From a virus, in the IMG/VR virus record IMGVR_UViG_3300012954_000086, positions 1 through 23,710 of that record: a DNA stretch of 23,710 nt. The stretch is one strand, 5' to 3'. Made by a program: the position numbers and the translations under genes. Shown here in pieces: positions 3,001-21,896 of the stretch (position 1 is its first letter; every line of letters begins with the position of its first letter). The notes under the pieces are model-generated. The model was not told where the DNA came from. It did no database searches and saw nothing but the letters and a program-made list of their open reading frames with translations.

Positions 3001-6000
3001 ATTACTCCGATGGCACCACATATCCTAACGTCTTTGAAAGAACCAACACAACTAAGTTGATGTTGGCAACGACTAAGGAAAATGCTGCTGCTGGTATCTA
3101 CATGTACTCACCAGAGACTGACTCTGTTGACTTTGATGTAGAGATTGCCCTTAACCAGTTTGTACTCGATGAGTCATATGATCTTCATCAGTATATTTGT
3201 AACTTCCCAACTGGTCTAACTGATCTTATCCAAACCGATGTTCCTCACATCTTCGATGTACCTGGAAATCTAGATGTTGTTCATGAAGTATTCTTCAGAA
3301 CGTTTGGTTCTAACTCATCTCTCCCACAGATCACCAGTGGTGGTGTTACTTCCGAAGTTGATACTAACAAGTATTACTATGTAAGATTCGTCACTTCCAA
3401 GACATTCGCTGTCTTTAACACTAAGGCAGAAGCAATTGCTGGTACACCTAGAATCACGTTTGCTCCTAACTTCGGTGCTAACTTCTACACCTTCGCTAAC
3501 AAGCGTGTCTCTCCTGTCAAGTTTGACCCAACTAGAGATGACTCCGCTCTGCTTCCTGATCAGCAAGAAACAACTACAGGTCAGTGGTACATCAATACCA
3601 CCGATGACTATGATCCTGCTATCAACATTCAGGCAAGAATGAATGAGATCGGTCAAGATCTCAAGGATGCTCGCTCTAAGAACACCTCATTCAAGCGTCT
3701 TAAGGATGAAAGAACTGCTCAAGACAGAATCTATCGTCTACGTTATGTCATTCCTAAGTATGCTGATGGTGTACGTGATCCTCTCAATGGTTTCGTTCTT
3801 AAGGCAAGAACTGACGAAACTAGAAAACTAGTACCACAGAAGATCCTACTGAAGCCTACTGCTTCTGGTCTTGCTGACGTTGCTCTATTCGAGACACAGA
3901 TCCAACTAACTGCTGGCGGTACTCTCGCTCAGCAATTGGGTCTTCCTTCTTCCGCCCTTGATCCAAACTTTGCTTACGATCCATATCTAAGCAGTCAAGT
4001 TAAGAAGATTCCTTCTGATAGAGTTGCTTCTAAGACTTCATTCAGTATCCAATCTGCTCGTCAGGTTGATGTAAGTGGCACCAACTACCTAGAACTAACG
4101 GTATTTGACCACACGATTACTGATGATGCTGTAAGAAACGAACAGTTTGTAACTGTTAAGATCAACGCTCCTCAAGGTGGCGGTGGTGCTTTCAGAATCA
4201 ACACTTCTGTTTCTAACAACCTCAACAAAATTCTCTGGAATGGTTTCTCCTCAGGTTTCGCTTTCGTACAAGGTTACTTCAACCCAGACGGCACCAATGA
4301 TCATTACCTAGTCCTCAAGGGTCTAGATGATGATGTAATCCGTTATGACAGAAACTCTGCTACTACCTTCTCACAACCAGTTCTAGATGCTGATAACGAT
4401 CCTGTATTGGATGGTAACGGTAATCAAGTTCTGATCTACGCTACCCTACAAGCAAAACCAAACAGTGTTGGTTCACCTAATGACTCACTGAGCAAGTCCG
4501 ACAGAAAGGACTTCCTCTACAGCGATAAGAACTCTAATGTTCTTACCATGACTCCTGGTGATATTATCACTGACGATGATGGTAACGACTACGAGATTGC
4601 TTCTGTCACTGATGCTGGCGAGATCGAAGATACCTTCTACATCTTTGACATCGAAGAGATCAAGCGTCGTATTCCTAATCAGCAAGAAGGTATCTACTAC
4701 CTAACTTGTATTAAGGGTAACATCTCTCCATTCCCAACTGGTCCTGGAGTTGGTACTAACTTCCGTGGATTCAAGTTCTCCCAGCCTATCGGTCAACTCT
4801 ATCCACTGGATTACAAGAACGATCCCCTCTGGTTCCAGGTCCGTCCTGATGACACTAGAGACACCACGATTCTTGATACTGATCCAACTGTTTGTGCTGC
4901 TGATAACTTCATTCACGGTCTTGTTACTACTAACGACTTCAAGAACAGTGAAACCAAAGAAGTTGTTCTTGACTTCATCGAGAACCCTGCTCTAAACAGA
5001 TTCGAGTACACTACCAATAAGATTGAGGCACAAGATGGTAACGCCGCTTCAGGTTCTGAAGACAGACTAATTCCTATCTCTGGTGACTCTGTATATCCAA
5101 CAGAAAACAAGCTCTACGTCGAACTACGTCGTCCATCTATTGCTAGATCTGGTAACCACACGTTTGAATATCTTGGTTTCGGTCCTGGTAACTACTCAAC
5201 TGGTTTCCCACTACGTCAGGAAGTTGTTCTAGAAGACATCCAAGACTTCTATGCTCAGGCAAAACGTGAAGACGGCGGTATCGTCTTCTACACGGGTCTA
5301 AACTCCAACGGTGACCTCTATATCGGTAACCGTAAGATCAACGCTATCACAGGCGAAGAGACGTTCCTTGAGAAAGCAGAACTACTATCATCTGATGATG
5401 ATGGTGGCGACATCGGTGGTCTGGTCACAACGTTTGAACTACCTGTTGCTTTCGAGCAAGAGATTACAGTTGACGGCAACGCTCTGTTCAACAACCCAGT
5501 AACTATTAACGTTGATGACAATGAACCAAATGCTTTCACTGTTGTCTCTAACGTTGACTCTAACTCTGGTGGTGATCAAACTCTAGACTCTGCTTCTTGG
5601 AACAGAAGCACCATTGCTTCTGAAGGTAACGTAGTTATCCATCAGAACCAGATCTTCTCTGCTATCTACAGACTGAACCCACGTGGTAGTTCACTACTAT
5701 CTGGTCAAGACTATAGTTTCAGAACTCATGTTGATCAGAACAATGGCAACACACCAACTAACAAGACTCCTAATCAGGACAATTCTAACCTCGGTGTAGA
5801 AGTTAAGTATGGTACGCTAAACACCTCCGCTGGTCCTACTGCTGGTGACATCCTACTCAAGGGTGAGGAAGTTGGCAGAACTGGTTCACTTGGTTGGATC
5901 TACGCTAACTTCTACCAGTCATTTGAAGCTAACATTGACTCCAGCACTGCTATTGGTGATGGCAATGTCCCAGCATCTGCTGGTCCTCAGGTCAGATTCA

Positions 6001-9392: not shown

Positions 9393-11101
9393 TGGCAGGA
9401 TACAACGTAATCAAGACACAAAAAGCCCTCCCTATTGGTTCAGTACAACCATGGGGAGGTAATGTTTCTGAGATCCCGAATGGGTGGTTGTTATGTAATG
9501 GAGCGGAACTAGAAGCAGGTGATTATCCATTGTTGGCACGTATTCTACGTGACACATATGGTGGTACTGCTTTTGGTGGTACTTTTCCTAACTATACAGG
9601 AACATTCAGGTTACCACAGACAAATAATAAAGCACTAGCGGATATCTCCACCGCTTACTTTGGTGTTTACGATTCAACGACTGGTCTAATTCCATCAGAA
9701 ATTGATAATTCTGATGCTCTAACAGTTGTAGAAGAATTTTTAGGAGATTCTGTACCTGGATTTGAACCTGGAGACCTCGGTCCTCCTAACGTAGTTAATG
9801 CCAAGACAGATTTAAACTTTACATATACCCCTGATCCTGCTGGAACTATTGTTAGTGTTACCACTACTGGTACTGGACCAGTGGTAGCTACTACAAAGCA
9901 GTATAAGAATGTGGTAGCAACTAATGGAACGAATGCTGATACTGGTGCTGCTGTAACTGGATCTGGTGCTCAATTTACTGTTGTTATTAATACAGACCAG
10001 TCTTACGATATTGTTCCTAAGGTAAAGGGATCTGGATATGAAGTTGGTGATCAACTAACTATTCCTGGATCTACATTTGCTAATGATGGTGGTACTTCCA
10101 CTGCTAACGATATTGGTATTACTATCACTAAGGTTGGCAACTCATACTTTGAAGGTGTGATTACAGGTCAGTCTCTTATTGATGGATTCTCTATTAAAGA
10201 AGTGTTTGTTGTTCCTAGAAAACTAGGAAGAGAACATTTTCCACAGCACTTCCACGAAGGAACATATAGAACAACTAATACTGGTGACTCAGATGGTAAC
10301 CCAGGTAGAGGTGCCTGTGTATTTGCTACACCTGATGTAAACTTTACTGAATTCTACGAAAGAGAACACCCCTGTCCATCTGGTTACTTTGCTCCTTTAG
10401 GACCATTCTGCCCTATCCCAGGTAGAGGTATTTTGGAATGTTCTAATAGTTCTGAAATTAATACTGGATTCTGGATTGGTAACTCCCCAACAGATAACAT
10501 TACATCTCTGGACAACGTACCATTTACTTCTGGTTTTGGTAGATACGCTATCGCTTCAGTTGGTGGCACACTACCTGTTGCTGAACACATTCCATATGGT
10601 ACTGGTAATACAGGTCATGGTGTAGGTAAAACATGGTTTACTGGTGCTGGTTCTCATTGGAACTTGAGAAACCAAACAGGTTCATCAGCTGATGGATCTG
10701 ATTCTAACATGACTGCTCTAAAAAGCACTGGACGATTTGCTCCTGGTTATAGAGTTCCATTCTCAGATAACCAACAGTTGGTAAATGCTCCTAACTTTGA
10801 CCCTGGAACTGGTGGATCTGATAATACTCATGGTATTACAAAGACATTGTTTAACCATGCTGGTATCTCATTCTTGAATGATACTTCCACTGGTGGTGGT
10901 GTCAATGATGTTATCGAAGCACATGATCATGATGGATCATTCAACATTGTTTATGATGGTTCTAACTTAGATGTTTTGGAACAGTTACAGGTCTTGGCAC
11001 AACCTAATGTAACTCCAAATTCTCTCGATGGAGCACTACAGATTACATTTACCACAAGAGTGGCTTCTATTACTATTACCAACCTAATTAGAGCATACTA
11101 A
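9392..11101 (+). CDS. Tail-collar-domain fibre protein (569 aa)
   Basis: I place the start at ATG 9392, sharing one base with the preceding TAA (TAATG); a TTG at 9371 in the same frame would add seven residues inside the upstream gene and is less likely. Residues 14-90 match a phage tail collar domain: LPIGSVQPWGG, then PNGWLLCNG, a D-Y-P-L-L-A strand and FRLPQ. A beta domain with GSGYEVGDQLTIPG follows at about residues 210-225. Two His-x-His motifs, HFH at 286-288 and HDH at 511-513, resemble the metal-coordinating HxH motifs of T4 gp12 and gp37. The protein ends ITNLIRAY, close to the (I)IKAY ending common in collar proteins. Family knowledge suggests a trimeric short-tail-fibre-like adhesin. 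There is no good Shine-Dalgarno, so translation probably couples to the upstream gene. Confidence 0.8.
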   Translation: MAGYNVIKTQKALPIGSVQPWGGNVSEIPNGWLLCNGAELEAGDYPLLARILRDTYGGTAFGGTFPNYTGTFRLPQTNNKALADISTAYFGVYDSTTGLIPSEIDNSDALTVVEEFLGDSVPGFEPGDLGPPNVVNAKTDLNFTYTPDPAGTIVSVTTTGTGPVVATTKQYKNVVATNGTNADTGAAVTGSGAQFTVVINTDQSYDIVPKVKGSGYEVGDQLTIPGSTFANDGGTSTANDIGITITKVGNSYFEGVITGQSLIDGFSIKEVFVVPRKLGREHFPQHFHEGTYRTTNTGDSDGNPGRGACVFATPDVNFTEFYEREHPCPSGYFAPLGPFCPIPGRGILECSNSSEINTGFWIGNSPTDNITSLDNVPFTSGFGRYAIASVGGTLPVAEHIPYGTGNTGHGVGKTWFTGAGSHWNLRNQTGSSADGSDSNMTALKSTGRFAPGYRVPFSDNQQLVNAPNFDPGTGGSDNTHGITKTLFNHAGISFLNDTSTGGGVNDVIEAHDHDGSFNIVYDGSNLDVLEQLQVLAQPNVTPNSLDGALQITFTTRVASITITNLIRAY

Positions 11102-12000
11102 TGGCAACATATTACACTAACGAAAGAGCAAGGTTTGGTGGTGTTACTGGCACCATTCTACCTTACCCTGTCAGAATGTCTGCTGTGAATGTTCCTGATC
11201 AGGGAAACTTTAAAACTCTATTGCCTGCTGGTTTTCTAAGATGTGATGGTTCTATTCTTACTGCCACTGAGTATCCAGTTCTAGCACAAGTATTGGGCAC
11301 TGGACAGAACTCAAAATTTAAAAGACCAGAACAAGAATTAACAAGCAACCAGTTCATTCTACCTGATATTGGATCTAAATATATCCAAGGTGGTAACGCT
11401 TCTGGTACTTATCTAAATGATAGGGTAACCAATGAAAATTCAACTAAACCATATAGAGTTGGATCTGAAGTTAGCGTTGTATCTCTAATTGGAGATACTA
11501 CTACGCTCACATATAGTGGTGAGTTTGAAGTTATTGCTCCTGGCAACATTGAATTTATTGGTAATCCTGCTTTTGGTACTACTACAACTGATAGTAGAAC
11601 ACTAAAAGCATTCTTGTCAGAACAAAACTTCCAAGCACATGGACATGATGCTGATGTTGGAGTCTTTAATTATCTTGGAAACTGGGCGGACTCTTTCTTC
11701 ACAGGTGAAACAACTGGTGCCTCACAGGGTGGTAATGATGGACAGAATGAAGGTTCTAACGAAAGAATTACCATTCAATCTCCAACTGGAGCAGGTGCTG
11801 TTGTAAATCATGCTCACTTGATCGACTTCCCCTCATCTACTGAAGTCGCTGCTAATAATGATTTGAGATATTCTTTTATTAATACTAATGTTGATGCTTT
11901 TGGATTGGAGACTAGTGTAACACTAACCACTAACGATCTTGTAAAACTAGACGAAGCAACACCCCCGTTTATTTTAGTAGAATATCTTATCAAGATTTAA
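11101..12000 (+). CDS. Second tail-collar-domain fibre protein (299 aa)
   Basis: ATG 11101 overlaps the upstream TAA by one base (TAATG). Residues ~18-100 form a collar domain: TGTILPYPVRM, LPAGFLRCDGS, TEYPVLAQVLG and FILPDIGSKYIQGG. After a ~70-residue beta segment come HGH (180-182) and HAH (237-239), the same two-motif pattern as the upstream protein. The end, ILVEYLIKI, is like the terminal strand of other collar proteins. It is about half the size of its neighbour and lacks the inserted beta domain and the long region between the two HxH motifs. Probably a short trimeric fibre or fibre tip in the virion. It is either a paralogue of the upstream gene or an independent member of the collar family; identity outside the collar and HxH regions is low by eye. 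Confidence 0.78.
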   Translation: MATYYTNERARFGGVTGTILPYPVRMSAVNVPDQGNFKTLLPAGFLRCDGSILTATEYPVLAQVLGTGQNSKFKRPEQELTSNQFILPDIGSKYIQGGNASGTYLNDRVTNENSTKPYRVGSEVSVVSLIGDTTTLTYSGEFEVIAPGNIEFIGNPAFGTTTTDSRTLKAFLSEQNFQAHGHDADVGVFNYLGNWADSFFTGETTGASQGGNDGQNEGSNERITIQSPTGAGAVVNHAHLIDFPSSTEVAANNDLRYSFINTNVDAFGLETSVTLTTNDLVKLDEATPPFILVEYLIKI

Positions 12001-12001
12001 A

Positions 12002-13567
12002 ATGCCTAGTAGAAGCGTATCAGGTCCTGGATCTACATCATTTAATATACCTGTAAACGGATTTAACATTCGTGCCACCGTTCGTGGTGCCCGTGGCGGT
12101 AGAGGTGGTGAAGACGCCGAGGCAAACGGCGGCGAGGGCGGTACTGGGATTCAACAAAGTTTTCAGTGGAAGAGTAGCAGAAATTTTATTGCTAGAAACT
12201 TTAGTATAACTGCTGGCGGCAGAGGTGGTAACGGTCAAGACAACCAACCTAACGCTACTGGTGGTTCTGGTGGTGGCGGTGTTGGCAGCGGCGGTCGAGG
12301 CGGTAACGCTGGTGATCCTCCCTACTCTGGCGGTGGAGGAGGCGGCGGCGGTGGTTCCGCTGTCTATGATGGTGGCACCCTAGTTATTGTTATGGGTGGA
12401 TCAGGTGGAGGCGGTGGTGCTTCCGATGACGCTAATGGCGGTGATGGTGGTGTCGCTGGAACCAATGCCTCTGGTGTTGGCAGCGTAAGCAGTGGTTCTG
12501 GTGGTGGCGGTGGAGACCCAGGCGGTACTGACGGCGGCGGTGGCGGCGGAGGAGGCGGTGGTGCCTCTGGTGGCGGCGGTGGTCGTGCTGGTAAAGATAA
12601 AAACTGGGGTGGCGGTGGCGGTGGCGCTGGATCGTCACAATACAAGGCTAGTTACTTGAATGCTGGTGGATCATCTGGTACTACTTCGAGAGATGGTTAT
12701 GTACAAGTTGATTGGGATGAAGCAGTAGCACAGGTTAATAGTTTTACGGCGGTTCCTAAAAACCAGAATAGTAGCAGCGGTACACCAGCATATAATACAC
12801 AATTACAGTGGCAAACTACATATGCTAATAGTGTTTCAATAACAAGTAGTGCTGGAGAATCTTGGAGTTTCAGTGCTAATATGCTTGGATCTACAGGTAG
12901 TTTGAATATTAATAATTTACCACAGTCTTCAGTTCCTGGTAATAGTCCTGCCTCAAGATCATATACATTGGTTGCTAGTAATGGGGCAAATCAAAGATCT
13001 AGAAGTGTTACCGTAAATGCTCGTAATGATAATACTCCGTCAAATAGTTGGACTACTAGTTTCACCAATCAAGAACCTAATACAGTTGTTACTTTAAATA
13101 TAGGAACTATTGGTGGGGTTGATATGGCAACTACTGTTAGCACTACTGGTGCTGGCAACTTCATTGGTAGTGGTGGATCTTTTAGTGGATCTAGAACTTT
13201 CAATAATGGTAATGCAGTACAACTAAGAACTACTACGCTACCATTCAATACAAACACTGCTGGATTGACTGGTAATTTTGGTAATACTAATACCAAAACA
13301 GTAACTATTAGTTACCCTGGTGGATCACAAAATATTACTATAACTACTAGAGCTCCTAGGATTAATGAAGTCTTTGACTATGCTGATAACAAGGATAAAT
13401 ATCCATATGAGGACATTGACCTAATTCCTAACTCACCAACAGAACATCTAGCAACAGCACAGATTAACGTTGATGATATTGAGATTCCTATGGAAATGAA
13501 AGTAAGCAAACCTCAGGCACAAATAAGCATCAACGGTGGTGGTTGGCAGAACGTTAGGAGTACCTGA
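12002..13567 (+). CDS. Glycine-rich-head / Ig-like-tail adhesin-type protein (521 aa)
   Basis: ATG 12002 lies one base after the upstream TAA. Residues ~18-238 are a glycine-rich domain: GGRGGNG and GGGGGGGGG runs surround a buried strand (TLVIVMGG, from residue 126), and it closes with DGYVQVDW (to 238). This plan matches glycine-rich domains that form poly-glycine II helices, as known in the T-even-like adhesin gp38 of phage S16 and in ALK/LTK receptors; the assignment is structural inference. Residues 245-521 are beta-rich, Ig-like and shared with the next gene. The last residues (QISINGGGWQNVRST) look like the first half of an Ig-like repeat seen complete in the 1912-aa protein. Likely an adhesin or fibre-tip component. 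GC content is high in the first 720 bases and low afterwards, so the two halves may have different histories. Confidence 0.75.
   Translation: MPSRSVSGPGSTSFNIPVNGFNIRATVRGARGGRGGEDAEANGGEGGTGIQQSFQWKSSRNFIARNFSITAGGRGGNGQDNQPNATGGSGGGGVGSGGRGGNAGDPPYSGGGGGGGGGSAVYDGGTLVIVMGGSGGGGGASDDANGGDGGVAGTNASGVGSVSSGSGGGGGDPGGTDGGGGGGGGGGASGGGGGRAGKDKNWGGGGGGAGSSQYKASYLNAGGSSGTTSRDGYVQVDWDEAVAQVNSFTAVPKNQNSSSGTPAYNTQLQWQTTYANSVSITSSAGESWSFSANMLGSTGSLNINNLPQSSVPGNSPASRSYTLVASNGANQRSRSVTVNARNDNTPSNSWTTSFTNQEPNTVVTLNIGTIGGVDMATTVSTTGAGNFIGSGGSFSGSRTFNNGNAVQLRTTTLPFNTNTAGLTGNFGNTNTKTVTISYPGGSQNITITTRAPRINEVFDYADNKDKYPYEDIDLIPNSPTEHLATAQINVDDIEIPMEMKVSKPQAQISINGGGWQNVRST
12050..12718 (+). repeat. Glycine-rich (GGN)n tract encoding a probable poly-Gly II domain
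   Basis: The + strand is dominated by GGT/GGC/GGA triplets, densest at 12262-12355, 12407-12421 and 12501-12630. It encodes Gly runs of up to nine residues broken by short Asp, Asn, Ser or Ala segments. The runs mix GGT, GGC and GGA and are not perfect nucleotide repeats. Local GC is far above the flanking sequence. Because of the composition, the minus strand is open in a Pro-rich frame; I do not regard that as a gene. Confidence 0.85.
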
Positions 13568-14784
13568 TGACAAACGATTTTTCTTTTACAAGTAGATCTA
13601 CTGGTGGACCACAACATAATGATCCAGGTTGGTCTAGTTTCATGAACACCTACAATATAGGTGGAACTGAACCAGGAACCTATAACGTTACTAGAACATA
13701 CTCCTGGAGTATTACATTTAACAATTACGGTAGACAAAGGTTTTGGACTGCTGTTGATGACTACGGCGACGTTCGTATCAATGGTGCCTATCAATTTAGT
13801 ATGGGTGGATTCAATGGTCAGTCTGCTAGAACGACACCAGGATATTTCTCACCAGGAACATATACTATTAGTGCTACATCAGTAAACTCTGGTGCTGGTC
13901 CTTATGGTGTGGCATTAGATTGGTTTGGTTATATTCCACCACCGCCACCCACAGTCAGTAGTTTTTATGCTACTCCTAACCCACAGAATAGTTCTTCTGG
14001 TATACCACAATACAGCACTACATTAGTTTATGCTGCTAGTGGAGTTGACATAACTAGTGCCCAGATTGTTAGTAATGCTGGAGAAACTTGGAATGTTGGG
14101 TCTAGTGGTACTTTAAATATTACTAACCTGGCACAATCAAATGGTGATGGAACTACACCACAACAAAGAACATATTCTTTCAGGGCATGTAATGGTGGTG
14201 GTTGTTCTCCATACAGTAATGTAACTGTATCTGCTCGTAATGATAATACTCCATCAAATGGTTGGACCACATCATTTACTAATTTAGATCCTAATACTCA
14301 GGTTACTCTTAGTATAGGTACACTTTCTGGTGTGGATATGCCTACTACAATATCTACAACAGGTGCTGGTAACTTTGTTGGTAACGCTGGATCTTTTACT
14401 GGATCTAAGAACTTTAGTAATGGTCAAGTAGTACAGATAAGAACTACCACGCTGCCATATAATACTAGTATGTCGGGTGTTGGTGAGAATGATCAGTTTG
14501 GTAATACAAATAGCAAAGACGTTCCAATCACTACACCCAGTGGTACTTTCAATGTTACTTTCACAACGAAAGCACCAGTAGTTAATGAGAACTTTAACAT
14601 GGGTGATAATACGAATAAGTATCCATACACAGATATTGACCTCATTGCTAACAGTCCACAAGAGTTTATACTCACTAGTCAGATAGATGCTGATGATATT
14701 GAGTCTCCACAGGAGATCAAAATGGATCAACCTGATGCTCAGGTCAGCATAAATAATGGAGCATGGCAAAACGTAAGAGAAATT
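12734..14784 (+). repeat. Direct repeat: 831-bp module shared by two adjacent genes
   Basis: Copy 1 is 12734-13564 (residues 245-521 of the first protein) and copy 2 is 13954-14784 (residues 130-406 of the second). Both encode 277 residues. Conserved landmarks in the same order: PQNSSSG or NQNSSSG; an AGE-(S/T)-W strand; a 20-base identical stretch at 13019-13038 and 14233-14252 coding for ARNDNTP; SGVDMPTT or GGVDMATT; STTGAGNF; TTTLP(F/Y)NT; DN-x-(D/N)-KYPY; IDLI; DDIE; and a final SIN(G/N)G-x-WQNVR. Nucleotide similarity is high enough to suggest duplication within the phage lineage. The interval covers both copies and the unrelated 389-base head between them. Confidence 0.85.
13556..13560 (+). 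promoter_or_regulatory. Shine-Dalgarno AGGAG for the 406-aa gene
   Basis: AGGAG ends six bases before ATG 13567, which itself overlaps the upstream TGA (TGATG). This is one of the best ribosome sites in the window and fixes the start. Confidence 0.7.
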
Positions 14785-14787
14785 TAA
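13567..14787 (+). CDS. Lectin-like-head / Ig-like-tail protein, paralogue of upstream gene (406 aa)
   Basis: The start is ATG 13567, one base overlapping the upstream TGA, with AGGAG six bases ahead. Residues 1-125 form a compact beta-rich head: Trp and Tyr are frequent, with FWTAVDDYGDVRINGAY and PGTYTISATSVNSG near its end. Such a DDYG/DG turn followed by a GTYxI strand is reminiscent of PA14- or galactose-binding-like sandwiches; I infer a carbohydrate-contacting role with low certainty. A Pro-rich linker (PPPPPT, ~124-129) leads into residues 130-406, which duplicate the C-terminal half of the upstream protein at identical length. It ends with SINNGAWQNVREI, the half-Ig motif. The most economical reading is a shared mounting module carrying two alternative or co-displayed heads in the tail. 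No signal or membrane segments are seen. Confidence 0.75.
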   Translation: MTNDFSFTSRSTGGPQHNDPGWSSFMNTYNIGGTEPGTYNVTRTYSWSITFNNYGRQRFWTAVDDYGDVRINGAYQFSMGGFNGQSARTTPGYFSPGTYTISATSVNSGAGPYGVALDWFGYIPPPPPTVSSFYATPNPQNSSSGIPQYSTTLVYAASGVDITSAQIVSNAGETWNVGSSGTLNITNLAQSNGDGTTPQQRTYSFRACNGGGCSPYSNVTVSARNDNTPSNGWTTSFTNLDPNTQVTLSIGTLSGVDMPTTISTTGAGNFVGNAGSFTGSKNFSNGQVVQIRTTTLPYNTSMSGVGENDQFGNTNSKDVPITTPSGTFNVTFTTKAPVVNENFNMGDNTNKYPYTDIDLIANSPQEFILTSQIDADDIESPQEIKMDQPDAQVSINNGAWQNVREI

Positions 14788-14788
14788 A

Positions 14789-14998
14789 ATGGCAGTTGAA
14801 AGAACAGAAGTTGTAGACGCTATTGAAGTTAGACCTTTGCTCAAGCAAGTAGGTGTTAGAAAGACTGTTACTACAACCGAAGACGGAGAAACTGTATCTG
14901 TAAATTCATACACCCAGTATTTCTCTCAAGACGACGATGTTTCTGGAGAGGACTCTCTATTCCAGAGCATTTCTAATCATTATTGGAGTACATTGTGA
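14789..14998 (+). CDS. Small phage protein with acidic VSGEDS motif (69 aa)
   Basis: ATG 14789 follows the upstream TAA by one base. The protein starts MAVERTEVVDAIEVR and has a Val/Thr-rich middle, a polar segment QDDDVSGEDS at about residues 46-55 and a C-terminal Trp. I recall short proteins with the same plan (ERTEVVDxIEV at the start, D-x-SGED/GQD followed by an aromatic end) near tail genes of other phages, but cannot give a function. It overlaps the next gene by four bases, so the two are probably co-translated. A real gene is supported by the spacing, the coupling and the lack of gaps elsewhere in the operon. Confidence 0.65.
   Translation: MAVERTEVVDAIEVRPLLKQVGVRKTVTTTEDGETVSVNSYTQYFSQDDDVSGEDSLFQSISNHYWSTL
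14985..14988 (+). promoter_or_regulatory. Shine-Dalgarno GGAG deciding a GTG start
   Basis: GGAG lies six bases before GTG 14995. The longer in-frame TTG at 14983 would overlap this site itself, so GTG is the better start. Confidence 0.6.
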
Positions 14999-15171
14999 AA
15001 AAATTTCCCGTAGTAAATAACCTCAACCCAGACGACCCTCACTTTAAGTCGAAGATTTTTGAAGTTGATGGAGATCGAGCACAAGAAATTACGGCAGACA
15101 AACCCATACAAGTAAGAATTAACAACGGTCCTTGGATTGATGTTAGGCAGTCTGACCTAAATAACAAATAG
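14995..15171 (+). CDS. 58-aa stand-alone C-terminal half-Ig module
   Basis: GTG 14995 overlaps the upstream TGA (GTGA) and has GGAG at ideal distance. The protein (58 aa) aligns end to end with the last ~55 residues of the two proteins upstream: KFPVVNNLNPDDPHFKSKI matches their KYPYxDIDLIxNSPxExxxTxQI segment, and PIQVRINNGPWIDVRQ matches their QVSINNGAWQNVRE ending. Nothing precedes this segment, so it is either the remnant of a third copy of the 277-residue module or a genuine free-standing small structural protein. Its good start signals and intact frame argue for a live gene. The next gene begins with what looks like the complementary second half of the repeat. Confidence 0.65.
   Translation: MKKFPVVNNLNPDDPHFKSKIFEVDGDRAQEITADKPIQVRINNGPWIDVRQSDLNNK
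15157..15163 (+). promoter_or_regulatory. Possible T4-type late promoter (CTAAATA)
   Basis: CTAAATA resembles the T4 late -10 (TATAAATA) and the related motif of T4-like cyanophages. It lies at the end of the 58-aa gene, 36 bases before ATG 15200 of the 1912-aa gene, at one of the few intergenic gaps in this operon. The same heptamer also occurs inside genes (for example near 11385), so it is weak evidence alone. Confidence 0.3.
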
Positions 15172-15199
15172 AAATAGCAACGTGATAGAGTAGTAATCC

Positions 15200-18100
15200 A
15201 TGCCATTTAGCAGCACCCCTGTCAACGTTAATCCTGGCGATAAGGTTCAAGTAAGATATCCAACGCCAAGCACTTGGAATACCCAAGTTACTGTTAATGT
15301 GCAAATTGGTACTGGATCTGACCCAGACGGTGTTACTTTTGGTACTAAGATTCCAGACGCTCTACCACAATCATTCTCATTTATTGATCAGCAAGGATTC
15401 GAGAATGCTTTCAACGGCACTAATAGTCCTGGCGCTGTAAGTTTATTCCAGAGAAATACTTTCTATTATTCTCAGGTAATTGATATTTCAGATATTGAGA
15501 TTCCAATTCCTGCTACTATTTCTGCTGTATCTAACGGTCCTAAGAATAGCAATACCAATAATACTACAGCAGCATTTAGAATCTACAGAGGTGGTGCTTT
15601 TGACTCCTGGAGAACATCTATCACTGCCAATGTTGCTAATGGTACTGGTGGTCTACAACCTGGAGATAAAGTTCAACTAAGAGTACAGGTGCCTGACTGG
15701 TATGTTACCAGCACCCTAGTTACTTTTACTGTAGGTGATGAGACATTTGGTACTAATATTGGACAACCATCTACACAATTCTCTAGAACTTGGGGTATTA
15801 CTACTAGACCACAAGATCAAGATATTCTCCAATATCAATTTACTGATAGAGTAGACCAAAAGAGACCCGCCGATGGTGGTGATACCTATTTCTATCAAAA
15901 TGTTCCTATCACTGGTATTGATGGTGATGTTGTACTTAGAGCATCATCTACTGGTGATCTACAAATTTCTGCTGATAATTCTAACTGGTCACAATCTATT
16001 GGTGATCAACTTGTCCTTAATGACACTCTCTACACAAGAATTGTTAATGGACCTAATTACACCCAGAAACGTACAGGTAATCTAAACGTATTTGCTGTAG
16101 GTGGTGATACTTACACTAGAGGTAGTAGTTTCTACGAGAATACTACTGCTGGTACATATGGATCAGGTGGTTATGCTGTAACTCAAAATCTTGGTACAGT
16201 TCAGGATAACTGGCAGTCATGGACTGAAGTAGATAGATATCCAGATCCAGTAGATGCTTCTCCTGTCTTTACATATGGTGTAAAACTTGCTTTAACTGGA
16301 GCACAACCAACTGGTGGTTTTGTCCCTGGTAACACATACAATGTCAGTGGTGGTAATGGCAACAGTATGGTTGTTAAACTGACCACTAATGGTTTCAATG
16401 AACTTGAGATTGTAGATCCTGGTCAAGGATATGATATTGGTAATACTGTTACTATCAGTGCTGGTGGACAAACAGCAACATTGAATCTTCTTGAGTATGA
16501 GAAGGTAGTTGTATCTGAGGATTCTGTACATAACATAGCAGAACCAGATTACATGTACTTTGCTGATATACCTGTTACAGGTCTCGGTACTGAGTATGCT
16601 GCTGGCATCTATAATGACTTAGAAGCACCATTTACTAATCTAGGTAATAACAATCCAACTATTGCTCAAAATACAGTAGCGTCATTGAATGGTCAAGGCG
16701 TTAAGATGGCGGTTAATATCGCTGGTAGTCCTGGATTTATTAGAAAGAATAACAGTGGTAGTTGGGTACAGCAACTTATCATTGAGAATGGTGATGTCAT
16801 CAATCTCAAGATGAAAGCATCTGGTACATTTGGTAATTCTCAGACTGCTTTTGTTAGAATAGAAGGTCCACCTGATGGTAACCCTACCATTGGTAATCCT
16901 ACTGGTGGTCCTGTCTCACCAACATTCACCGAGAAACTATTCTCGATGCAACTGGTTACTAGGAAAGCAAGAACAGTTCCTTATCCATTCCATGCTACTC
17001 CTGTATATCTTTCCGATCCTGGTGTTGAACAGATTGCTGAGGTTAAACTTAGAGGATTAGATGCATCAACAACAGCATCAATTACTGGTGGTGTTGGTAG
17101 TCTTAGTGCTGATGGTGTTAACTGGGGATCATCTGTTACTGTTCTACCCTCAACATATATTTTATATGTTAGACAAAATGCCAGCACAGCATCTGGTGGT
17201 CTAGCACAACTTACATATAGAATTGGTACATCAGCTGATATCCTTGCTGGTGATGCTCTATTCGATACATTCAGGTCATATACTAGACAGTTTAACGTAC
17301 TAGGTGACTTCATCACCCAAACATATTTTGGTGTAGGATTTACTGACTTCACTAACTTCGGACTCCCTGCTTTCGCTGGCGAAGAATTCTTCGTGTCACT
17401 AATTGGTGCTGGTGGTGGATATGGTGGTGCTGATATACCTGCTAGCACTGGTGGTCCTGGTGGATCTGGTAATGTTATGAGATTGAAGGTTCAGATTCCA
17501 GCATCTCAGTGGCCACTAGATAACTTTGGCAACCCAGATTTCACACTAAGAGTTTACCCTGCTGATCAGGGTGAGGATGGTATTGATTACATCCAAGGTG
17601 CTGCTGGTGGTGCTGGTGGTTTTGGATATGCTAATGGTGGTGATGGTGGTAACGCTGGATCTGGAGATCCTTCTGGATCAGGTGGTGGCGGTGGTGGTGC
17701 CTCTGCTATTACACTCACCGATGGCACTTTGATTGCTATGGCTGGTGGTGGAGGCGGCGGTGGTGGCGCTGGTAATGATGCTGCTACACCATTAAGTCTT
17801 CAGTATGGTAACTACAATGGAAATGGTAGTGTTAACACGTCAACAGTTAATATAAACATAGCAGGTGATGATGCTCCTAATAGATCTGGTCAAGGTGGCG
17901 GTCCTGGTGGCGGCGGTGGTGGTTATGATGGCACTGCTGGTACACTAATTAATAGTTACATCGAGAATGGTGTCACTATCAATACCAGTGATCTAGATGC
18001 TACTGGTGGTAATGGTGGTGGTGCTTATTACAACACCACATATTGTACTGTGCTTGGTGGTGGAACTGTAAGTGGTCAAGGTGCTGCTTGTGGTGAAGCT

Positions 18101-20938
18101 GGTGCTGTTTATATTGAATACTCACAGCAAGATACAACACCAGATCCTTACCAGTTCTCTACATATGATGGCGCTTCTATTCAAGAAGAAGTTTATTCTG
18201 ATATTGTACAGATTACAGGTATTACGGGTACAGTTCCTGTCTCTCTAATCTCTCCTGGATTTACATCACAGATGAGAATTTGTACTGGTTCTTCTTCTGC
18301 TAGTTGTGGACCATGGCAGGCATCTGCTCAGATAGGTAATGGTCAATACGTACAGTTAAAAGCAATTACTGGTAACCAATTCTTCACTACATACACAGTT
18401 CAGTGTACTGTTGGTGATGCTTCTGCTAACTGGGATATTAATACTGGTCCACCACCTGACTCTGTTCCAAACCCATTCTTCCTAACACCTATTCAAGGTG
18501 CTATTCCTAACACTAACATCACTAGTGAAGAGATTACAGTCTCTGGTATTACTGTTCCTGTAACTATCACTGCTGTTGGTGGTCTTGCTGAGATTAGTGT
18601 GAACGGTGGAGCATATGTTCCTGGTGTCCCAGGTGCTACCATCTCAAATGGTGACACATTTACAATTAGAATGCCATCTTCACCTGACTTCTTGTCAGCA
18701 GTAACCACTACAGTAACTGTTGGTAATGGTGCTGATACTGATTGGACTGTTACTACTGCTGCTGAACTAGATTCAACACCAGATCCATACACTTGGATCT
18801 ATGAAGTTGGTGCTACGTTGCTGACAACATTTGAAAGTAATACTAACTTGATTCAAGGTCTTGGAACTGAGGTTGATTTCATTGTTGAGCAAGGTCTCGG
18901 TGATCAAGGTCAAAGTGGTGATTTGCCACGTATTATTTTGAATGGTACTGTACTACCAGCGGGTGTTACAACAACTCCAGTCAACAACTTTGATACACTA
19001 GCACTACAATATACAACTAGTGATGTTGTTGGTGAGACTAGAGTATTTAATACTAAGTTAGGTCTTGCTACCTCTACAGCAGGTTTCTTTGAAACTCCTT
19101 GGAGTGTAATTACTGCTGGTCAGTTCGGTACAGATCCTGTTCCTTTCTCCTTCGCTACACAGATTGCTGCTGCTACCAGTACATTTACTGAGGCAGTAGA
19201 AACTGTACAAATTGCTGGTCTATCTCCTGGTATTAGTGTTGGTTTATATGGTACAAACGGAATTCAATTCAACATTAACGGTGGTGGATACAATGTTTAT
19301 ACTGTAGCATCACAAGCAAACGTCAGTAATGGTGATACATTCACTGTTAGACTATTGTCATCTGGTATCCCTGGATTTACTAGGACAGCATTTGTATTTG
19401 CTGGTTCACAGGTATCAGGATTCTCTGTTCAATCTCCTGCTTCTGTACAAGATCCTATCAACAGTCAGTGGTACAGTTCTATCACACCATGTAAGTACAT
19501 TGGTAACACATTTAGTGGTGCTCAGATTAGAATCAATACCAAGTTTGATGGACTACCTGTTGGTGCTATCATGCCTGTCTTCCAAGATGCTCTAGAGAGT
19601 GATTTCTGGGGTAAACTAGATGGTAAGGCAGACTCTAGATTCCCAAGTTTTGTGTACTGTGATGGTGGATATTATGATCCAGCAGACTATCCAGTGCTAT
19701 TTGATGTCATTGGTTATGACTACGGTGGTAAGAGTGTAGGTGGAGATGTATACTTTAGAGTTCCTGATCTAAGAAACAGATATGTCAAGGGAACTGGTGT
19801 TATTGATGGTAATGCTCAGTCATCACCTGGATTGAACCCAAGTTTCAAACCAACCAAGCAATCTGGTTCCCCTGGTAACCAAGAACCTGGAGCATTTGGT
19901 GGTATGTGGTACATCGATACCATTGGTGATCCTGGTGTTGATGAACTAGAACAGGTTATTACTCCTGCTACAGGACAACCAGCACAGGAATCTGAATACT
20001 TTGGTATTGCTCAGGTATCTACTACTGGTTATACTGAAGTTACTGGACTGATCGAGTTCATTACATCTGGTAAGGCAACATGTCCTGTTGGATTGAAACC
20101 AGAAAAGATTTATGATGTTCCCCTACACTTCCACGATTTGATCTCTGGTGTTCCTGACCCAGGTAGATTCAAAGGTAGAGTTAACTGGGGTGGTACTGGT
20201 GGATATGGTATTGATGTTGTACCAGCTAATGCTGTTAACATTGGTTCTAACAATGCTACCTTTACATCATCAGGTCAGTTCTCATTCAACCTATGGGGAT
20301 ATGCTCTCCAGAACTATGATCTAACCTCAAGTAATCTACCTGGATCTACTGGTTGTGATGATTCTGGTTGGTGGGATGGTAACTCAAGTGACTGGCCCAA
20401 TAACGTTTCGCCAGGTTATGAAGGTATTGAAGAAGCCGATGAATATGGTGCTGTTACTATCGTACAGTCTGGTATTACTGGTGCTGTATATAATGAAATC
20501 AATTCTTATATTGATCTAGATGCTATTCCATTCCCAGGTCAGACTGGAGCATTTGGTGGTTCTAACGCTAGAAAGTTCCTCAGTACAGTTGACATTCCCG
20601 AGAAAGAAGTTACTGTCAAGTCTTACAACCCTGTCAATAAACTGAAGCACAATCACTACGTTTCATTGACTGCCATTGATGATGACCTAATCTATGGTTA
20701 TGGTAACTTTGAAACTGGTGGTACTACTAGTGCTGCTCTTGCTAGTTTCTCTGGTGGTATCAACAACTCAGTTGATCTAGAGTTCTCTGCTCTAGATGTT
20801 GGTATTCAGGTTCTTCCTGGTACATTCACACTACAACAAACTAAGCAGTTGATTCCTGTCCCTTCATTCTCACCTCAAGATCAAGTTCCAATGGTTACAC
20901 CTTATGTGTGGACCAAGTGGATGATCAAAGCGTTCTAA
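15200..20938 (+). CDS. Giant multidomain fibre protein: Ig-like repeats, glycine-rich domain, C-terminal tail collar (1912 aa)
   Basis: ATG 15200 is set by an in-frame TAA two codons upstream; only a weak purine stretch (AGAG) precedes it. Domain order: a partial Ig-like unit (1-55, NPGDKVQVRYPTP); a complete unit from ~95 (DIEIP) to ~195; further Ig-like units to ~500, including a GQGYDIGNTVTI beta insert; another unit from ~595 to ~700; a glycine-rich domain at 727-975 with inner strand DGTLIAMAGGGG (from 841) and closing strand GAVYIEYS; four tandem Ig-like repeats at 979-1414; a tail-collar domain at 1450-1535 (LPVGAIMPVFQ, FVYCDGG, DYPVLFDVIG, FRVPDLRNRYVKG); HFH at 1643-1645 and HNH at 1817-1819; end MIKAF. 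This looks like a long adhesive fibre with a gp12-like receptor tip. No enzyme motif is visible. A chaperone gene follows 25 bases later. Confidence 0.82.
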   Translation: MPFSSTPVNVNPGDKVQVRYPTPSTWNTQVTVNVQIGTGSDPDGVTFGTKIPDALPQSFSFIDQQGFENAFNGTNSPGAVSLFQRNTFYYSQVIDISDIEIPIPATISAVSNGPKNSNTNNTTAAFRIYRGGAFDSWRTSITANVANGTGGLQPGDKVQLRVQVPDWYVTSTLVTFTVGDETFGTNIGQPSTQFSRTWGITTRPQDQDILQYQFTDRVDQKRPADGGDTYFYQNVPITGIDGDVVLRASSTGDLQISADNSNWSQSIGDQLVLNDTLYTRIVNGPNYTQKRTGNLNVFAVGGDTYTRGSSFYENTTAGTYGSGGYAVTQNLGTVQDNWQSWTEVDRYPDPVDASPVFTYGVKLALTGAQPTGGFVPGNTYNVSGGNGNSMVVKLTTNGFNELEIVDPGQGYDIGNTVTISAGGQTATLNLLEYEKVVVSEDSVHNIAEPDYMYFADIPVTGLGTEYAAGIYNDLEAPFTNLGNNNPTIAQNTVASLNGQGVKMAVNIAGSPGFIRKNNSGSWVQQLIIENGDVINLKMKASGTFGNSQTAFVRIEGPPDGNPTIGNPTGGPVSPTFTEKLFSMQLVTRKARTVPYPFHATPVYLSDPGVEQIAEVKLRGLDASTTASITGGVGSLSADGVNWGSSVTVLPSTYILYVRQNASTASGGLAQLTYRIGTSADILAGDALFDTFRSYTRQFNVLGDFITQTYFGVGFTDFTNFGLPAFAGEEFFVSLIGAGGGYGGADIPASTGGPGGSGNVMRLKVQIPASQWPLDNFGNPDFTLRVYPADQGEDGIDYIQGAAGGAGGFGYANGGDGGNAGSGDPSGSGGGGGGASAITLTDGTLIAMAGGGGGGGGAGNDAATPLSLQYGNYNGNGSVNTSTVNINIAGDDAPNRSGQGGGPGGGGGGYDGTAGTLINSYIENGVTINTSDLDATGGNGGGAYYNTTYCTVLGGGTVSGQGAACGEAGAVYIEYSQQDTTPDPYQFSTYDGASIQEEVYSDIVQITGITGTVPVSLISPGFTSQMRICTGSSSASCGPWQASAQIGNGQYVQLKAITGNQFFTTYTVQCTVGDASANWDINTGPPPDSVPNPFFLTPIQGAIPNTNITSEEITVSGITVPVTITAVGGLAEISVNGGAYVPGVPGATISNGDTFTIRMPSSPDFLSAVTTTVTVGNGADTDWTVTTAAELDSTPDPYTWIYEVGATLLTTFESNTNLIQGLGTEVDFIVEQGLGDQGQSGDLPRIILNGTVLPAGVTTTPVNNFDTLALQYTTSDVVGETRVFNTKLGLATSTAGFFETPWSVITAGQFGTDPVPFSFATQIAAATSTFTEAVETVQIAGLSPGISVGLYGTNGIQFNINGGGYNVYTVASQANVSNGDTFTVRLLSSGIPGFTRTAFVFAGSQVSGFSVQSPASVQDPINSQWYSSITPCKYIGNTFSGAQIRINTKFDGLPVGAIMPVFQDALESDFWGKLDGKADSRFPSFVYCDGGYYDPADYPVLFDVIGYDYGGKSVGGDVYFRVPDLRNRYVKGTGVIDGNAQSSPGLNPSFKPTKQSGSPGNQEPGAFGGMWYIDTIGDPGVDELEQVITPATGQPAQESEYFGIAQVSTTGYTEVTGLIEFITSGKATCPVGLKPEKIYDVPLHFHDLISGVPDPGRFKGRVNWGGTGGYGIDVVPANAVNIGSNNATFTSSGQFSFNLWGYALQNYDLTSSNLPGSTGCDDSGWWDGNSSDWPNNVSPGYEGIEEADEYGAVTIVQSGITGAVYNEINSYIDLDAIPFPGQTGAFGGSNARKFLSTVDIPEKEVTVKSYNPVNKLKHNHYVSLTAIDDDLIYGYGNFETGGTTSAALASFSGGINNSVDLEFSALDVGIQVLPGTFTLQQTKQLIPVPSFSPQDQVPMVTPYVWTKWMIKAF
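17378..18124 (+). other. Glycine-rich (probable poly-Gly II) domain inside the 1912-aa protein
   Basis: It encodes residues 727-975. It opens with a hydrophobic strand and GAGGGYGG, passes through several Gly runs (SGGGGGGAS, AGGGGGGGGAG, GGGPGGGGGGYDG), has a central LIAMA strand and closes with AVYIEYS. The same order of elements is seen in the head of the 521-aa protein (residues 18-238), so the two are versions of one fold despite little identity outside glycine. Confidence 0.65.
18134..19441 (+). repeat. Four tandem ~100-120-residue Ig-like repeats
   Basis: Units begin at residues 979 (TTPDPYQF), 1087 (DSVPNPFFL), 1191 (DSTPDPYTW) and 1311 (TDPVPFSF) and end near 1414. The shared pattern is a D-x-x-P-(D/N/V)-P-(Y/F) opening, a (V/I)-(T/Q/S)-(I/V)-x-G(I/L) strand, a short NGG- or NG-type turn, an NGD or NFD (repeat A: NGQ) before a hydrophobic strand, and a closing strand such as TVTVGNGADTDW. 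More diverged copies precede the glycine-rich domain. This is a typical stalk architecture. Confidence 0.7.
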
Positions 20939-20963: not shown

Positions 20964-21896
20964 ATGGCGTTCAATCCAGACGATTTTCAATTTGAGAAAA
21001 TCTTACCACCCGAAGAAAGGAAACCTATTCTAGAATGGGACGCTTTGCATCGTCTAATGGTAGTTCGTGTTAAGCAAGATGGCGAGTGGACTTACCTTGG
21101 TACGAAACTTGACACCCAGATTAATAACAACCTCCACAATAATCTACCAGATGAGTGGTCTAACGAAAACGACAGAATTGTAACTTTTGCTGTTTTTGAA
21201 GATGGTGAGCATATCTTTGAGAAGGAAAAACTAAAATTTGATTTTTCTGCTAAAACTTCAAAATGGTTGAGATATGAAAAGAATGATCTTACCGATGGTC
21301 AAGTAAGAGAACTATTTGATATTCTCAAGGCAGCACTGGCAGTACAACAAACTGATGCTGAGGTTGTAAAGTCGAAAGCAATCATTGATGTCGCTACTAG
21401 ACAAGAATACCTAGTTAAGACTGACGAGGTAAAGAAACAAAACCTAACCAAATTGCTACGTAGTTCTGATTGGTCACAACTACCAGATGCTACCGAAAGT
21501 TTCCCTGGTGAGATAGAGATGTGGACTGCTTATAGAACATATCTACGTGAAAATGTCAAGACTCCAGAAGATTTTGATGACATGCTAGATTATCTGATTT
21601 GGGATGAAGAGTACAAGTGGCCTATTGATCCCTTTGCTTATCATGAATTAGATCCAGATCACACGAATGATTATCTATCAGTACCATCTCACTTCAAGTA
21701 TAATGTATATGAAGCAGGAGAATACACTACTGAACAACTCGTAGGTGATGTTAAACAGTCTGCTCTCCTTGCTAAGAAGCGTCAAGATGAAGGTGGACTA
21801 CCAATGAACAAACAGATTTGGGATAAGATTCAACAGTATAAACTCAATGAGGGTCTAACTGGTGCTGTAATCGAAAACTTGAACATTTCGGAGTGA
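20964..21896 (+). CDS. Probable tail(-fibre) assembly chaperone with Phage_tail_APC-like domain (310 aa)
   Basis: The start is ATG 20964, 25 bases after the giant fibre gene. Residues ~158-197 carry the signature of a family of phage tail assembly chaperones (as in Pfam Phage_tail_APC): N-L-x-x-LL then SDWSQLPD (168-175) and W-x-x-YR-x-YLRE (187-196). The rest is acidic and charged, with a predicted helical stretch around 105-160 (VRELFDILKAALAVQQ). It looks soluble and cytoplasmic, unlike the Gly/Thr/Asn-rich virion proteins before it. Family members act during tail or fibre assembly; its place directly behind the fibre genes fits a dedicated folding or assembly partner, most simply of the 1912-aa protein. 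The N-terminal ~150 residues are not recognised. The ribosome site is weak (AAAAAGG about 13 bases upstream). Confidence 0.7.
   Translation: MAFNPDDFQFEKILPPEERKPILEWDALHRLMVVRVKQDGEWTYLGTKLDTQINNNLHNNLPDEWSNENDRIVTFAVFEDGEHIFEKEKLKFDFSAKTSKWLRYEKNDLTDGQVRELFDILKAALAVQQTDAEVVKSKAIIDVATRQEYLVKTDEVKKQNLTKLLRSSDWSQLPDATESFPGEIEMWTAYRTYLRENVKTPEDFDDMLDYLIWDEEYKWPIDPFAYHELDPDHTNDYLSVPSHFKYNVYEAGEYTTEQLVGDVKQSALLAKKRQDEGGLPMNKQIWDKIQQYKLNEGLTGAVIENLNISE
21890..21893 (+). promoter_or_regulatory. Shine-Dalgarno GGAG for the 127-aa gene
   Basis: GGAG sits at the end of the chaperone gene, seven bases before ATG 21901, indicating co-translation from the same message. Confidence 0.65.

Follow-up and report, generated by a model that had tools for sequence, protein, structure and literature searches.

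The window, by which we mean the whole stretch of 23,710 bases of a virus record that we analysed, contains tail genes that match those of T4-like phages of Synechococcus and Prochlorococcus. In order, the window encodes a giant fibre, whose gene runs off the left end, then a short fibre like gp12, the collar protein of 299 aa, and proteins of 521 and 406 aa. Two small ORFs come next, followed by the fibre of 1912 aa, a protein resembling tail assembly chaperones, a protein of 127 aa, and a helicase. Genes of this kind in cyanophages are mostly annotated as encoding hypothetical or virion structural proteins. The features of concern here are as follows.

11101–12000, plus strand: 299-aa collar-domain protein (phrog_4714, E 1.2e-65), directly upstream of the tandem head-stem genes (the ‘rack’).
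12002–12736, plus strand: predicted TNF-like/poly-Gly ‘head’ of the 521-aa protein, residues 1 to about 245 (AF2 model, VIA, relatives).
12728–13564, plus strand: C-terminal stem of the 521-aa protein, residues 243–521, common to the 406-aa protein and many relatives.
13567–13956, plus strand: PA14-like head of the 406-aa protein (Pfam PA14 in aligned members).
13954–14784, plus strand: C-terminal stem of the 406-aa protein (blastp to residues 234–519 of the 521-aa protein).
14789–14998, plus strand: small 69-aa ORF (MAVERTEVVDAIEVRPLLKQ...), conserved, between the rack and the giant 1912-aa fibre.
14983–15171, plus strand: second small ORF, conserved; the start is possibly the GTG at 14995.
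15200–20938, plus strand: 1912-aa fibre protein with a mid-chain Gly-rich domain, beta-repeats and a collar domain (residues 1484–1528).
17285–18139, plus strand: predicted mid-fibre TNF-like/poly-Gly domain, about residues 696–980 of the 1912-aa protein (AF2 model, VIA).
18131–19100 (end approximate), plus strand: D-x-x-P-[DN]-P-[YF]-type repeats of the 1912-aa protein, directly after the mid-fibre domain.
20964–21896, plus strand: 310-aa tail assembly chaperone-like protein (phrog_4697, E 1.9e-38), directly downstream of the 1912-aa gene.

The 1912-aa protein matches PF07484 (E 1.8e-8) and, over residues 1144–1912, phrog_4924; its repeats begin at residues 978, 1087, and 1191. The 310-aa protein also matches Pfam Phage_tail_APC with an E of 0.0018, a match that falls short of the family cut-off.

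An earlier note on this DNA proposed that the head of the 521-aa protein and residues 727–975 of the 1912-aa protein share a plan in which runs of glycine surround a hydrophobic strand and are closed by an aromatic strand. The motifs it named are indeed present where it placed them: TLVIVMGG at residue 126 and GYVQVDW at residue 232 of the 521-aa protein (ATG at 12002), and TLIAMAGG at residue 843 and AVYIEYS at residue 969 of the 1912-aa protein (ATG at 15200). The mid-fibre domain starts earlier than the note had it, at about residue 697–705, as an opening strand precedes residue 727. The Gly-rich stretches contain up to ten glycines in a row, and among the tail proteins of the window we found no further stretch of this kind. 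Direct comparison of the two domains by blastp with composition filtering turned off gave an E of 4e-34. Because this score is inflated by glycine, we instead used shuffles that preserve the glycines together with profile comparison. An HMM of the N-terminal family scored 89.6 bits against the mid-fibre domain (the maximum being 36.2 in 200 shuffles in which every glycine was fixed), the reverse comparison of the mid-fibre family to the N-terminal domain gave 41.5 (shuffle maximum 22.0), and alignment of the two profiles with hhalign gave a probability of 99.6 and an E of 6.4e-24 over 229 columns. The similarity of the two domains therefore exceeds that expected from glycine composition, and the N-terminal and mid-fibre Gly-rich domains are homologous.

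Structure prediction with AF2, using 44 sequences of the N-terminal family or 20 of the mid-fibre family and no templates, gave a model of the N-terminal domain with a pLDDT of 93.0 and a pTM of 0.90 (all five models 90.0–93.0) and a model of the mid-fibre domain with a pLDDT of 87.1 and a pTM of 0.87 (mean pLDDT dropping from 87.1 to 59.0 across the five models). Rather than one buried hydrophobic strand, as had been supposed, each model contains 11 to 12 strands of at least three residues. Foldseek matched both models with a probability of 1.00 to the receptors ALK and LTK. With VIA-align the N-terminal domain reached a Z of 14.7 to LTK, 10.6 to the mycobacteriophage Bxb1 tail tip protein, and 9.6 to the cyanophage Pam3 tail fibre, with the next row at 3.1, while the mid-fibre domain reached 16.6 to ALK, 10.7 to Bxb1, and 10.5 to Pam3, no other protein being listed (Z range 9.9–16.6). 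The alignments to ALK and LTK span some 190–200 residues, which is nearly the whole domain, with 22–24% identity over the aligned residues in the top rows. The ALK/LTK, Pam3, and Bxb1 entries in the PDB were first released from 2021 on and the AF2 training cut-off is 2018, so these entries postdate the training of AF2. By sequence alone, a PDB search with the profile of the N-terminal family ranked LTK and ALK first (E 5e-4 to 7e-3); the corresponding search with the mid-domain profile gave no match to ALK or LTK, and a PDB search with the single sequence of the 521-aa protein gave no match. The fold matches suggest that most of the strands form a TNF-like beta-sandwich of which the glycine helices would be extended loops. 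A poly-glycine II geometry is implied by the alignment to the solved ALK/LTK structures and by the ordered Gly regions being mostly without helix or strand. Since only ALK/LTK, Bxb1, and Pam3 exceed the noise, we place both predicted domains in the ALK/Pam3 ‘TG’ type rather than specifically with the gp38 of T-even phages. In the fold comparison with gp38 and ALK that the earlier note had suggested, ALK and LTK came top, and S16 gp38 never appeared in the Foldseek or VIA lists.

Searches of Pfam and NCBIfam with the single sequences of the two window domains gave no match, including to Pfam Gly_rich_2 (PF21722) at an E of up to 1. Gly_rich_2 does match relatives of both, 20 of 44 for the N-terminal domain (best E 4e-7) and 10 of 20 for the mid-fibre domain (best E 8e-10), but the name of this family says nothing of function. 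In BFVD the best matches were virion structural or uncharacterised proteins of the Synechococcus phages ACG-2014j, S-SM2, and ACG-2014i. We note that, among hits there such as A0A1V0EEM7, A0A385EC16, and A0A2P0VMX4, several viral proteins of this fold are named receptor protein-tyrosine kinase, probably by transfer of the ALK name, and others are labelled PE-PGRS family protein.

Scanning viral contigs with the N-terminal domain yielded no confirmed relative, and tblastn of the mid-fibre domain against phages yielded nothing; in both cases low complexity was probably the cause. As the scan with the N-terminal domain had given no confirmed relative, we gathered relatives with the 299-aa collar protein as an anchor, which returned 80 viral loci. 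Counting the window, the two HMMs recognise one or more domains in 58 of 81 loci, these locus and protein counts including some overlapping or near-identical contigs. The first type of domain lies within the first 30 residues in 63 of the 73 proteins with a complete 5′ end, whereas the second type starts at residue 601–770 in the 21 fibre proteins scored, and its mid-chain position is thus conserved in relatives. The arrangement of a collar gene, a head-stem rack, and then a fibre with a mid-chain copy of the domain recurs in marine T4-like cyanophages.

The stem, of about 275 aa and with a terminal INNGxWxxVR motif, is shared within the window, residues 234–519 of the 521-aa protein being 54.9% identical to residues 115–404 of the 406-aa protein by blastp, and 93 stem-bearing proteins are present in the fetched loci. 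BLAST sorts the 83 distinct stem proteins that are complete at the 5′ end into 13 head classes, which are single-linkage clusters in which distant homologues could be split, and unrelated heads sit on stems that are up to 71% identical. The heads of the rack include Gly-rich ones, PA14-like ones, and others. In the class to which the head of the 406-aa protein belongs (head class 1), 3 of the 11 members aligned match Pfam PA14 (best E 2.5e-7), although the window's own 406-aa head gave no match to PA14 at an E of up to 1. Profile searches of the PDB gave nothing significant for this head (best E 0.1, to lectins) or for the stem (best E 0.88). One shared stem carries different heads in relatives, and this diversity looks like the product of head exchange.

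In a set of ten near orthologues, pairwise identity within the N-terminal domain averaged 0.90 at glycines, 0.61 at non-Gly residues of the Gly region, and 0.46 in strands; for the mid-fibre domain the values were 0.96, 0.72, and 0.75, respectively. The variability of loops between glycine runs that had been anticipated by analogy with gp38 is not what we observe, as positions of the Gly region other than glycine vary less than the strands do in the N-terminal domain and to about the same degree in the mid-fibre domain. Hypervariable loops of the gp38 type were not seen among these ten sequences, a set in which distal loops and proximal turns are not separable. Nor are the loops invariant, which would have spoken against the proposal of the earlier note, and a conservation map read by eye places the lowest conservation of the N-terminal domain at about residues 149–166 and 216–232.

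The fold itself is already known and is partly covered by Gly_rich_2. Its best match over both domains, the TG module of ALK and LTK (PDB 7nx0, 7nx3, 7n00, 7lrz, and 9g5i), likewise combines a TNF-like and a glycine-rich domain, but belongs to the ectodomains of animal receptor tyrosine kinases that bind protein ligands and has no context of a phage stem or fibre. Closer in setting is the tail fibre gp24 of cyanophage Pam3 (PDB 7yfw and 7ypx), in which, as here, a TNF-like and a glycine-rich domain occur in a cyanophage fibre, and whose glycine-rich domain is described as recognising the host receptor (PMC9608196). In gp24, however, the domain lies at the C-terminus behind an alpha-helical trimeric shaft, whereas the copies described here either precede a stem at the N-terminus or lie midway along the 1912-aa fibre. 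The tail tip protein of mycobacteriophage Bxb1 (PDB 9d93, chain Q) has the same fold but differs in phage group and tail type. The gp38 of Salmonella phage S16 (PDB 6F45) resembles the proteins described here in its context of a tail fibre and in its Gly-rich motifs, which are poly-glycine II helices as would be expected here. It comprises an N-terminal attachment bundle, a beta-helix in the middle, and a sandwich of ten Gly motifs with hypervariable distal loops (PMC6851490); compared with it, the 521-aa protein has its parts in reverse order, the scaffold of the domains described here corresponds to TNF-like proteins, and the ten near orthologues showed no hypervariable loops. The placement of the two domains, one at an N-terminus and one in mid-fibre, is therefore unlike that of gp38, as the earlier note had recognised. 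What looks new is the layout: an exchangeable N-terminal domain heads a C-terminal stem, such proteins are encoded in tandem racks, and the fibre next to them has its own copy of the domain built in. A limited search of open-licence papers found none that describes such a head-stem rack and none that joins ALK-like glycine-rich domains with bacteriophages.

We consider it probable that these proteins represent a swappable TNF-like/poly-Gly head on a stem, together with a copy of the same domain built into a fibre, and that they most likely serve in binding the host. Each domain would consist of a TNF-like beta-sandwich whose loops are drawn out into poly-glycine II helices packed as a bundle. 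The N-terminal domain of the 521-aa protein would be one of several exchangeable heads, and the conservation of the shared C-terminal stem suggests that attachment to the tail or to a fibre is its most likely role. Because the mid-fibre domain is built into the chain and repeats follow it directly, it most likely projects sideways from the shaft. We infer that these proteins are present in the virion, where the heads and the lateral site on the fibre would bind surface structures of Synechococcus or Prochlorococcus hosts, and specificity would change mainly by exchange of whole heads rather than through hypervariable loops. That both domains most likely bind receptors is suggested by the analogy with Pam3 gp24, by the way in which heads are exchanged while the stem stays constant, and by the PA14-like alternative head; the lack of hypervariable loops weakens the analogy with gp38 as an argument for receptor binding. 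A broader picture, which we put forward tentatively and to which we give somewhat less than an even chance, is that marine T4-like cyanophages carry a rack of adhesins, that is, tandem proteins with a conserved docking stem and freely exchanged heads (ALK-like TNF/poly-Gly, other Gly-rich, PA14-like, and others) beside a giant fibre with an ALK-like domain. If so, host range could shift by the swapping or addition of heads. How marine T4-like cyanophages recognise their hosts is still poorly understood; a defined set of heads on a common stem would single out specific candidates for receptor-binding proteins and offer a simple way to test how host range changes. A fold familiar chiefly from the human receptors ALK and LTK also gains phage members here, in a new arrangement.

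The main rival to host binding, above all for the conserved mid-fibre copy, is a structural role in which the domains act as rigid braces or spacers of the fibre or decorate the tail, as the tail tip protein of Bxb1 may also do. We regard this as unlikely overall, but it draws on the match of both models to that protein (9d93_Q, Z 10.6–10.7), on the similar place of the mid-fibre copy in 21 fibre proteins, and on the conservation of this copy (0.72–0.75 identity outside glycine) without hypervariable loops, a degree of conservation that would also suit a structural part. Against it, unrelated heads, including the PA14-like head, sit on the same stem, which better fits interchangeable binding modules, and Pam3 gp24 bears this domain at its distal end (PMC9608196).

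We give little credence to the possibility that the 521-aa protein is a true T-even gp38 adhesin capping the tip of a gp37-like fibre. Its Gly-rich repeats, its location among tail genes, and the published likeness of Pam3 gp24 to S16 gp38 (PMC9608196) are in keeping with such an assignment, but the domain order is inverted (Gly-rich domain at residues 1–244, then a 275-aa stem), the fold matches are TNF-like/Gly-rich proteins, no gp38 model was found in Pfam at an E of up to 1 for any of the 44 members of the family, and the gene directly upstream encodes the 299-aa collar protein (phrog_4714) and not a gp37-like fibre. A specific kinship with gp38 thus finds no support in domain order or neighbouring gene, and the ten near orthologues did not show its loop pattern; the lack of 6F45 from the fold lists is in itself no proof. 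A reading of the Gly-rich stretches as disordered linkers or as artefacts of low complexity is very unlikely and the least credible of these alternatives: runs of up to ten glycines and a blastp score inflated by glycine content alone would be expected of such sequence, but the Gly stretches are ordered in models with mean pLDDTs of 93 and 87, the pattern of non-Gly residues is conserved, and the models align with Z of 14.7 and 16.6 to solved ALK/LTK structures over some 190–200 residues. The confident models and their nearly full-length alignment with the glycine-rich domains of ALK and LTK argue instead for ordered Gly regions, in line with the earlier note, and lead us to reject disordered linkers.

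Several further arrangements were seen among the relatives, which we designate here by locus number where needed. In several near relatives an extra stem protein with another Gly-rich head is encoded between the 521-aa and 406-aa genes (for example L017 5242–6675, L020 11466–12896, and L021 11458–12909); the window is without this gene at the corresponding junction, at 13567, where the stop of the 521-aa gene overlaps the start of the 406-aa gene. A cultured relative, the Synechococcus phage Sf-FR1 (L003), which grows on strain WH8102 and is the only isolate found to have both head-stem proteins and the mid-fibre domain, encodes in the same slot (11355–12269) a 304-aa protein of 28% glycine with no recognised stem. 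Two of the domains occur in one chain in L049, L065, L081, L088, L090, and L091, and in three of these loci (L091 5703–11159, L081 9175–14541, and L088 7909–11649) two Gly-rich domains are combined with a head of the PA14-like 406-aa type in a single chain, as if members of the rack had been fused. In the protein encoded at 5706–12353 of L016, some 150 Gly-poor extra residues (about 950–1105) split the mid-fibre domain, and these may amount to an entire additional domain borne by a loop. The spacer that contains the two small ORFs is 411–412 bases in near relatives, in which both ORFs are conserved, and L007, L008, and L021 have the frame of the 69-aa ORF (14789–14998) open over the same length from the same start. 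The second small ORF ends in IQVRINNGPWIDVR, which is like the terminus of both stems (AQISINGGGWQNVR and AQVSINNGAWQNVR), and because of this resemblance the ORF may encode a free copy of the docking end of the stem.
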